Shown: piece after piece, positions 25,280-27,916 of the stretch
Layout: each line of letters begins with the position of its first letter
Numbering within the stretch: the stretch's first letter is position 1
Origin: Natrialba sp. SSL1
GTDB taxonomy: Archaea > Halobacteriota > Halobacteria > Halobacteriales > Natrialbaceae
DNA: 64,000 nucleotides
Direction: 5' to 3'
Assembly (NCBI RefSeq): GCF_001861355.1
Contig: NZ_MASN01000001.1
Coordinates: 1 to 64,000, forward strand
Position numbers and translations under genes: made by a program
Notes under the pieces: model-generated
The model's database searches: none
The model's input: the letters and a program-made list of their open reading frames with translations, nothing else
What the model was told of the DNA's origin: nothing

Positions 25280-26878
25280 TTAGGCTCCGGCCCAGACGTT
25301 CGTTGCGGAGACCGCTCCGAACTGAACGTTTTCGTTCTCCTGGAGGACGACCTGTGCGGAGTCAGCGCTGCCACCGTCGTCGGCGACGGCGATTGCAGCC
25401 TGCTGCTCGTTGATGTTCTCTTGGTTGATGAACTGGAGCTGTTGAATTGCGGCGGTCGCCTCCTGCTCGACGTCGTTAGTCTGCTGTGCGTCGGTGTCGA
25501 ACGCGATGCCGGGTGCACCCTCGACATCACCGCCACCGAGCGTCATGCTGGTGGTCTCGGAGTGGATGGTGCTGTCGTGGACGTAGCCGGGCCCGGCGTA
25601 GACGTTCAGCGCGTCAGCGAAGCCGATCTGTGCGTTGATGTTCGTCTGGTGGGCGAGCTGGACTGCAGTGGCGTCGCTGCCGTTGGTCGCGATCGCCATC
25701 GCAGTGCTCTGGAGGTTGACGTTCATCTGTTCGACTTCCTGTGCCTGAGCGACGCCGGAGGTTGCGGTCTGTCCGTCGCCGTCGTCAGCACCCTTCTTGT
25801 GGTGGTCCTTGTCCTTCTTGTCGTCCTTCTTATCGTCATGCTTCTTGTCGTCGTACTTCGCGTCCTTCTCGTCCGCCTTCTCATCGAGCGCGCTCACTGC
25901 CTGTGCGGTGTCTTCCATCGCAGCGGCGTCGTCGATACCGGCCGTCGCGATGTTCATGCCGGCGAGTGAGGCGAAGACGCTCGAGGCGTCTGCGGCACCG
26001 ATCTGCTCGTTGAAGTTCGACTGTTCGGTGAGCTGAATCGCCGTTGCGGTGCTGTTTTCACCGACGGCGATCGCAACTGCGCTGTCCTGCTGGTTGACGT
26101 TCTCTTGGTAGGCCGCCTGCTCCTGGTTGACCGTCGCGTCAGCGGACTGGTCCATGAAGTCACCGCCACCAGCGTAGACGTTCGTCGCGTTCGCGACTCC
26201 CTGCTGGAGGTTCTGGTTCGTCTGGTGGGACTGCTGGATCGCGAGCGCCTCGCTCTCGTTGTCCGCGAGAGCGAACGCAGTGCTCTGTTCGTTGTAGTTC
26301 AGCTGACCGACGTACTGACTCTGGGTCACTTCAGCTTCGGCGACCTGATCGGCATCAGTGTCGACCTTGTCCTTGTGGCCCTTCTTGTCGGCAATACCCC
26401 AGCCGTCGAACTGCTTGCCGTCACCGTTACCGAGGACGACGTTGACGGTGCCGACATCCTCGAAGGAGGTGAACTGGCCAGCCTGCGTCTCCGCGAGTGC
26501 CTCGGCGAACTGCTCGTTGTCGTTGTACTGGTTCGCCTCCTGGATCGCGGTTGCTTCACCGCCGTCGATCGCGATCGAGGTTGCGTTCGACTGCTGGTTG
26601 ATGTTCACCTGATCAACATCCTGGTACTGGTTCACCGTCGCGTCAGCTTCGCCGGACGCGTGAGCTTCGATATACTCGTCGAGTGTCATCCCGTCGAGCT
26701 CAGCACCGAAGACCAGGTACAGTTCTTCACCGTTCTCGAGTGCGTGAACGTCACCGTTCGACTTCACGTCCTCGCCGGCTGCTGCTGCGGGGGCGCCCAT
26801 CGCAATCATCGATAGGGCGACGATACACGCCATCAGGACGGTCGTATACTGTGACCGTCTTGTCGTTGTGTTACTCAT
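25280..26878 (-). CDS. Secreted curlin-like Q/N-rich repeat protein
   Basis: A 532-residue exported protein from ATG 26878. A Sec signal ends near AAAAGED (residue 35). Five blocks follow at about 82-123, 184-226, 250-292, 378-418 and 478-520. Each has two QxNxN rows about 27 residues apart, with alternating Ala/Ile positions between (as in QVNINQ...SIAI...AIQ...QYNDN). The every-second-residue pattern indicates beta strands with stacked Gln/Asn, similar to bacterial curlin repeats. Block ends repeat N-V-[YW]-A-G. A charged Lys/Asp/His tract spans about 332-363. It is probably a surface or fibre-forming protein. No database match was tested. Confidence 0.7.
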   Translation of the reverse strand: MSNTTTRRSQYTTVLMACIVALSMIAMGAPAAAAGEDVKSNGDVHALENGEELYLVFGAELDGMTLDEYIEAHASGEADATVNQYQDVDQVNINQQSNATSIAIDGGEATAIQEANQYNDNEQFAEALAETQAGQFTSFEDVGTVNVVLGNGDGKQFDGWGIADKKGHKDKVDTDADQVAEAEVTQSQYVGQLNYNEQSTAFALADNESEALAIQQSHQTNQNLQQGVANATNVYAGGGDFMDQSADATVNQEQAAYQENVNQQDSAVAIAVGENSTATAIQLTEQSNFNEQIGAADASSVFASLAGMNIATAGIDDAAAMEDTAQAVSALDEKADEKDAKYDDKKHDDKKDDKKDKDHHKKGADDGDGQTATSGVAQAQEVEQMNVNLQSTAMAIATNGSDATAVQLAHQTNINAQIGFADALNVYAGPGYVHDSTIHSETTSMTLGGGDVEGAPGIAFDTDAQQTNDVEQEATAAIQQLQFINQENINEQQAAIAVADDGGSADSAQVVLQENENVQFGAVSATNVWAGA

Positions 26879-27523
26879 GTTTCGTTTGATCTGAGCCGTG
26901 AGAGTCTTTTGTTTCTGCATCTCCACGGCGCAAACCTTCGTATCCTGATGACAGACTTTGTTATCTGGTTGTTGTCGAACTGATGGAAGCGCCTACCGAA
27001 CGGAAGACGGCGACTTCTGCCTCCGAATGGAGTGCTTTCGACGGTGGTAGCCACCGAAACAGCGGACCGACTGCATCCGGTTAGAGCGGTGTCTACAGAC
27101 ACACAACCACCCTGTTCGGATTCGTCCCACCTGAACGGTCACTGCCCGATGATTGTTACAGCGACCAAAGTAGGGCGTTACCGTTCTCAAAACAGTCACC
27201 CCGTTTCTGTGTCTGGCTACACTCGTCTGTTGCAACCGTTCAATGGCCGGTCAACGACGGGGCTGAGAGACTGTCGTCATCGTTCCAGAGAAACACGCGT
27301 TTCAGCGAGGTGTAGGATGGCTCACAGAGCGATAGTTTCGGCTTCAATCGGGCTAATCGGAGTATTCGCCGTGAAACCGTTGTTCGGGTTGAAGTACTCC
27401 TCGCTGTTGGGTTATGACCGGGCAACGCGCCACAGCAATCGGGGCCACCAGTGGCTTGAACACTGAACTCGTCGTCACGAGGGGCCCCGGTCTGTCGTGG
27501 AGCGTGCCTCAGGATTACAACAC
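26879..27523. other. Divergent intergenic region between the two Q/N-rich genes
   Basis: About 645 bp without a supported gene. It must contain the promoters of both divergent secreted-protein genes. Its length leaves room for regulator sites, but I found no clear palindrome. Confidence 0.5.
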
Positions 27524-27916
27524 ATGAAGCGAACACTCGCAATTACACTGACGGTAGCGCTCATCGGCAGCCTCATGTTCATGGGGTTCGCCGGCACGGC
27601 AGCAGCACAGAACGACGTCGATCAAGAGACGGGTGACGCGAGCGTCGAGATCGGAATCGACCAGAACAACAACAACGCACAGGTAGGCATCGCTGAGTCG
27701 CACTCCAGTTCGTTCGCCCTTGGTGCATCGGCCTCTGACAGCAAGTGGGGCACCTCGACCGGCGCATCCTCCTTCAGTGCCTCTAACGCTGAAGTGAACC
27801 AGGACCAGACCGCGGTTCAGGTTAACAACGCCGAAGTCAGTGACGTGACGGCCGAGAGCGGTGACAACGTCAATGTCGGCGACATTGACCTCGACTTCAA
27901 CGGCAACGGCGACTGA
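27524..27916 (+). CDS. Small secreted Q/N-rich protein
   Basis: A 130-residue protein from ATG 27524. The signal peptide MKRTLAITLTVALIGSLMF continues to GFAGTAAAQ. The mature part is Asn/Gln/Ser-rich: ASVEIGIDQNNNNAQVGIAE, then SSSFALGASASDS and ASNAEVNQDQTAVQVNNAEVS, ending DIDLDFNGNGD. Alternating polar/small residues indicate beta strands like those of the large repeat protein encoded divergently 645 bp away. A minor fibre subunit or nucleator is a possible role by analogy with curli CsgB; this is an inference. Confidence 0.65.
   Translation: MKRTLAITLTVALIGSLMFMGFAGTAAAQNDVDQETGDASVEIGIDQNNNNAQVGIAESHSSSFALGASASDSKWGTSTGASSFSASNAEVNQDQTAVQVNNAEVSDVTAESGDNVNVGDIDLDFNGNGD

Follow-up and report, generated by a model that had tools for sequence, protein, structure and literature searches.

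The locus described here raises the question whether a divergent gene pair of a haloarchaeon encodes the subunits of an extracellular fibre. The window, i.e. the whole stretch of DNA that was analysed, comprises 64,000 nucleotides of Natrialba sp. SSL1 (NCBI RefSeq assembly GCF_001861355.1, contig NZ_MASN01000001.1, positions 1 to 64,000 of the forward strand). An earlier note on this sequence had proposed that a 532-residue protein with a Sec-type signal and a divergent small gene form a functional-amyloid pair, the larger protein being curlin-like; both open reading frames (ORFs) and the signal were found as it had described them:

25280..26878, minus strand: P0001, the major five-repeat secreted protein (532 residues; mature isoelectric point 4.05; ORF, alignment)
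27524..27916, plus strand: P0002, the small divergent partner (130 residues; one degenerate repeat behind a strongly conserved signal peptide; ORF, alignment, profile)

The two proteins represent an undescribed conserved family, probably of repeat-stacked extracellular proteins of haloarchaea; no described family covers the pair. The reading favoured here, with a probability of roughly one half, is that P0001 is a secreted, repeat-stacked cross-beta protein which would polymerise outside the cell, while the one-repeat protein would nucleate or cap the growing fibre.

The signal peptide, repeats and most prominent linker of P0001 are located as follows:

26777..26878, minus strand: Sec-type signal peptide, residues 1-34, cleavage before GED... 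(sequence, alignment)
26483..26653, minus strand: repeat R1 (repeat-profile match)
26171..26350, minus strand: repeat R2 (repeat-profile match)
25970..26152, minus strand: repeat R3 (repeat-profile match)
25772..25969, minus strand: charged, low-confidence linker between R3 and R4 (KDDKKHDDKKDDKK...; predicted local distance difference test score (pLDDT) <50 at residues 304-367; sequence)
25595..25771, minus strand: repeat R4 (repeat-profile match)
25289..25468, minus strand: repeat R5, which runs to the C-terminus (repeat-profile match)

The five blocks with paired QxNxN rows seen by the earlier note were recovered at residues 90/117, 192/219, 258/286, 384/411 and 486/513 (spacings of 27, 27, 28, 27 and 27 residues). 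Strict [QN]x[QN]x[QN] triples number 21 in P0001 versus 2.8 ± 1.8 in shuffled sequences, and 0 of 2000 shuffles reached that value. The alternating residue pattern was confirmed as well, the autocorrelation of glutamine/asparagine (Q/N) being raised at lags 2, 4, 6 and 8 (z of 6.5, 5.4, 3.9 and 3.7) and not at odd lags. The Q/N pattern is more than composition, and its rows are kept across 34-48 homologues. Each repeat of about 60 residues consists of two strictly alternating Q/N/Ala rows with an NGSE-type turn between them; 145 equal-length repeat units gave the consensus QxAxAxVxQxQxVxQxNxNxQxxAxAxA-(NGSE)-AxAxQxAxQxNxNxQxGxAxAxN, in which the Q and N columns of both rows are 94-100% conserved and the Ala ladder columns near-invariant too. 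The Q, N, A, V and G positions are candidates for an inward-facing side, the alternate positions being variable.

Exactly five repeats are present in 47 of the 48 distinct members (the exception carries an extra half) and also in 14 further, mostly distant majors. Repeats of the same index are 62-67% identical between species, versus 39-52% among the repeats of one protein. Lys+Arg make up 0.5% of the repeats and Asp+Glu 13.7%, Lys being confined to the linkers, which are acidic, charged and variable in length (medians of 38, 4, 44 and 40 residues). The signal of P0001 is not of the twin-arginine translocation (Tat) type, because the RR pair is not conserved across the family in the signal alignment; family members carry a Sec signal and no conserved Tat motif, in contrast to a Tat sister subfamily considered below. 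In some lineages the majors bear a PGF-CTERM, a motif that leads to tethering by archaeosortase.

Structure prediction with AlphaFold2 covered the whole of P0001 with 34 relatives and, separately, a block of R2 and R3 (128 residues). In the whole model, pLDDT was 70-89 in most repeat blocks and <50 in the linkers; in the R2-R3 block the mean was 70 (62-83 by block), and three strands of 22, 6 and 26 residues were alike in both repeats. With moderate confidence, the models suggest that each repeat forms one beta layer, in which a short strand accompanies two very long ones. When compared with the PDB using Foldseek, the whole model had two FapC fibrils as its best matches, and the R2-R3 block matched FapC twice, then a CsgA fibril, with HELLF and HET-s ranking lower. 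These fold matches serve as a pointer only, since none was significant and global template-modelling (TM) scores were about 0.1.

Regarding the small partner, the second signal-peptide protein announced by the earlier note was confirmed in the alignment, where the signal peptide is strongly conserved. Two Q/N rows were placed by alignment:

27638..27691, plus strand: first Q/N row of P0002 (ASVEIGIDQNNNNAQVGI)
27785..27841, plus strand: second Q/N row of P0002 (NAEVNQDQTAVQVNNAEVS)

The claim that P0002 shares the Q/N style of P0001 is weak for P0002 taken alone (281 of 2000 shuffles reach its pattern; lag-2 z of 2.7) and stands through profile homology to the major repeats. Against a repeat profile built from majors alone, P0002 scored 16.1 bits versus at most 8.0 bits for any shuffle; among mature small proteins, 24 of 31 scored above every shuffle, with about one repeat each, and those of Haladaptatus are clean single repeats (repeat-profile E-values of 5e-18 and 6e-16). 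These scores indicate that the small partner is homologous to the major repeats. Derivation from one particular major repeat was considered and rejected, the best-matching repeat not being consistent. In Natrinema-type loci (L048, L050, L052-L054, L057) some proteins in the array of small partners are larger: they share the signal peptide but carry a non-repeat domain in addition.

The divergent pair was found in 30 of 34 named loci, the small partner lying upstream in one to four copies; of the remaining four, one lies at the edge of a contig, and no small partner is visible in the other three. A check of co-occurrence within Natrialbaceae, as the earlier note had suggested, showed that all 87 major-positive genomes match the small-partner profile (82 strongly), while the 20 major-negative genomes gave no strong and one weak match. 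The small-partner profile weakly matches major repeats too, and the strict count was used; the resulting table supports co-inheritance (Fisher p about 2e-17, uncorrected for phylogeny). Joint absence or loss of both genes recurs within several genera. The major and small proteins most likely constitute a functional pair.

Relatives of P0001 occur in 49 of 100 sampled relatives' genomes and in 97 of 391 genomes of the order; matches of 90-92% agree with a Natrialba-like genome as the source of the window. The 34 named loci are all from Natrialbaceae (Natrialba, Natrinema, Halopiger, Haloterrigena, Halovivax, Natronorubrum and others); beyond this family, members were found in Haladaptatus and Halomicrococcus (Haladaptataceae). 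Within the order-wide sample, in which Haloferax was not searched by name, the proteins turned up only in families f1, f4, f14 and f17, and the repeat profile run against 393 genomes of the phylum returned members of the P0001 family only. Public annotation of the relatives reads 'hypothetical protein' or 'PGF-CTERM sorting domain-containing protein'. Searches of both proteins against Pfam and NCBIfam yielded nothing meaningful, the repeats falling under no family of either database, and PDB sequence searches with the single protein, the family profile and the repeat profile yielded nothing relevant; the sole PDB match of the repeat profile, a PhoQ fragment (E-value 0.015), was judged compositional. 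Relatives were not found on viral contigs, and a viral fold library gave no significant match. In Natronorubrum bangense (L045, L046) the major gene and its two small partners are present on the chromosome and again on an 828-kb plasmid.

A more specific version of the favoured reading, tentative and put somewhat short of even odds, describes an archaeal functional amyloid that is independent in sequence of curli and Fap, and whose five-layer monomer with Asn/Gln ladders would leave the cell by Sec alone, polymerise at molar salt and have its growth nucleated or capped by a one-layer protein. In the favoured reading itself, the repeat layers would stack through ladders of Asn/Gln side chains into a five-layer monomer, and the exposed ends of that monomer would template the next one outside the cell. 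Fibres might then form in the space of the surface layer (S-layer) or in the biofilm matrix; as archaea have no outer membrane, a dedicated exporter would not be needed. The small partner, with its one layer, may nucleate or cap growth. Salt would screen the acidic surface, and assembly should require molar salt, because the repeats are almost without Lys/Arg and contain about 14% Asp/Glu. Majors bearing a PGF-CTERM would be tethered by archaeosortase. Fibre formation by P0001 is a plausible inference.

Several observations weigh against polymerisation. AlphaFold means are low (56 for the whole protein, 70 for the block; predicted TM-scores of 0.49 and 0.39), Foldseek matches are all non-significant (E-values of 0.046-0.4; the best match has a probability of 0.05 and a TM-score of about 0.12), and the amino-acid term of Foldseek could favour any Q/N-rich fibre. 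The conserved non-repeat segments YLVFGAD and FDGWG suggest roles beyond that of a plain fibre. The sister subfamily (L104, L105, L110-L115, L120, L121) has Tat signals of the RRGYLKG type and exactly five repeats; the stretches read around its genes show no single-repeat partner. Tat exports folded proteins; because this subfamily keeps five repeats, five layers probably suffice for a finished domain. Most of its members have Lys-rich C-tails; some are megaplasmid-borne or represent a second paralogue.

The Tat subfamily keeps alive the possible, though doubtful, alternative of a discrete five-layer beta-solenoid, monomeric or in limited oligomers, which would be an adhesin of the surface or matrix, or a protein associated with the S-layer, and have the small protein as its one-layer cap or ligand. 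Such a solenoid would also suit the repeat number, fixed at five across all subfamilies, the conservation of repeats by position and the PGF-CTERM-anchored members. Enteric CsgA and FapC, however, are near-fixed in repeat number and yet polymerise (PMC3521004, PMC12392863), a plain solenoid would not usually have long disordered linkers between its layers, and a capping domain was not recognised. The linkers are charged and many residues have pLDDT <50, as would be expected of an intrinsically disordered, low-complexity matrix protein with no stacked structure; this is nevertheless improbable in view of the strict strand-type alternation, the near-invariant ladder columns and the repeat pLDDT of mostly 70-89. 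A secreted, acidic protein with some conserved non-repeat motifs might also be an antimicrobial halocin, an enzyme or another soluble factor with a low-complexity body, a role of the kind the earlier note had named as a counter-indication. Matches to enzyme or bacteriocin families are absent from Pfam and NCBIfam, the conserved positions are mostly those of the repeat, and the partner is homologous and co-inherited and not an immunity gene; this explanation is likewise improbable.

A true curli system homologous to CsgA/CsgB was suggested by the Q/N/Ala alternation, the major-minor pair and the third rank of the CsgA fibril in Foldseek. It is largely refuted and the least probable of the explanations. 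The curlin repeat PF07012 matched neither P0001 (E-values up to 10) nor any of 34 members (E-values up to 1); the repeat profile of the P0001 family does not pick up CsgA or CsgB; and CsgG, CsgE and CsgF were not matched in the genome, the E. coli controls being detected. The 'curlin-like' label of the earlier note therefore holds as an analogy (a predicted repeat-stacked, amyloid-type plan, with a major and a small protein sharing the repeat) and fails as a statement of kinship. Its remark that no CsgG-type exporter is visible proved correct, none being recognised nearby, with secretion by Sec, whereas the curli-operon layout survives in part: major and minor genes with homologous repeats are adjacent in 30 of 34 loci, but they are divergent and not operonic.

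The intergenic region and the neighbourhood of the pair are conserved to different degrees. One element was delimited by conservation and genome search:

26947..26965, minus strand: GATAACAAAGTCTGTCATC element, about 87 bp upstream of the ATG of the major gene

The 19-mer GATAACAAAGTCTGTCATC has a single mismatch-free occurrence in the genome. Of 33 loci, 29 retain the GATAACAAAG core, which lies 85-87 bp before the major gene in 26 of them and at -99 in the other three; these 29 are among just 30 copies in 1.3 Mb (both strands). A AAACAAAAGACTCTCACGG stretch is conserved between the GATAACAAAG element and the major ATG, and a GATGCGTGCCT-like motif recurs just before the small-partner ATG in many loci (e.g. 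L044, L036, L042, L039). The conserved stretch ahead of the major gene has the look of a leader or promoter. A start codon of P0001 14-16 residues further upstream was ruled out, some relatives having no usable start there. Among recurrent neighbours within 10 kb no conserved exporter or assembly gene was recognised, a genome-wide search with FapF or FapA/D/E models not having been part of this comparison. On the partner's side larC and cdc48 are the only recurrent genes (25 genomes), and they look like bystanders.

Haloarchaeal biofilms have been stained as amyloid-containing, with the structural gene not established. The pair, found in most Natrialbaceae genomes sampled, would follow the plan of bacterial biofilm amyloids without sequence kinship, which makes P0001/P0002 a concrete and genetically tractable candidate for an archaeal biofilm fibre. 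If P0001 does form fibres, a design with one Q/N-laddered layer per repeat, a fixed repeat number and a repeat-sharing partner arose without homology to curlin or Fap; it would need no channel in an outer membrane and would use a scaffold that is acidic and halophilic. The proteins are also a possible source of salt-gated fibre materials.

Among known assemblies, the putative amyloid of Haloferax volcanii biofilm is a haloarchaeal matrix material that binds Congo red and thioflavin T (PMC4180959). The amyloid-like sheath protein of Methanospirillum (PMC10593813, PMC6242892) is likewise an archaeal extracellular assembly, but it builds a tubular methanogen cell sheath; the profiles of the P0001 family gave no relevant PDB sequence. 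A single archaeal protein with curli-like repeats has been mentioned (PMC3521004); perhaps it is the 245-residue protein observed in a genome that resembles Haloterrigena turkmenica (L067:1300-2037, minus strand), whose tandem 19-residue curlin repeats score above the PF07012 cut-off. Like P0001 this is a haloarchaeal, secreted Q/N repeat protein, but the P0001-family repeat profile does not score it, and by that measure it is a family independent of P0001. Curli, like the P0001 family, combine a secreted protein of Q/N/Ala repeats with a smaller homologue, and enteric CsgA also has five repeats; its repeat, however, is about 22 residues long versus about 55 in the P0001 family (strands of about 22-26 residues), and it has no long linkers, whereas those of the P0001 family are long and disordered.

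CsgA, whose exporter set is also lacking in the genome, is thus a poorer analogue of the P0001 family than FapC of Pseudomonas. In FapC each repeat forms one cross-beta layer of about 52-62 residues with an Asn/Gln hydrogen-bond network, the linkers are disordered and variable, 94% of the proteins have three repeats, and the minor protein FapB carries homologous repeats (PMC12392863; PDB 9u4u, 9nqd). The P0001 family differs in having five repeats instead of three, one repeat instead of three in the minor protein, and a different motif; it is archaeal, has no conserved exporter gene adjoining it and is apparently exported by Sec only. FapC gave no PDB sequence match and ranked first in Foldseek only at E-values of 0.046-0.1 (probability ≤0.05). 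The traits of the FapC design (one layer per repeat, fixed repeat number, variable disordered linkers, Asn/Gln network, a repeat shared by major and minor proteins) nonetheless have sequence-level counterparts in the P0001 family, which is not its kin in sequence.
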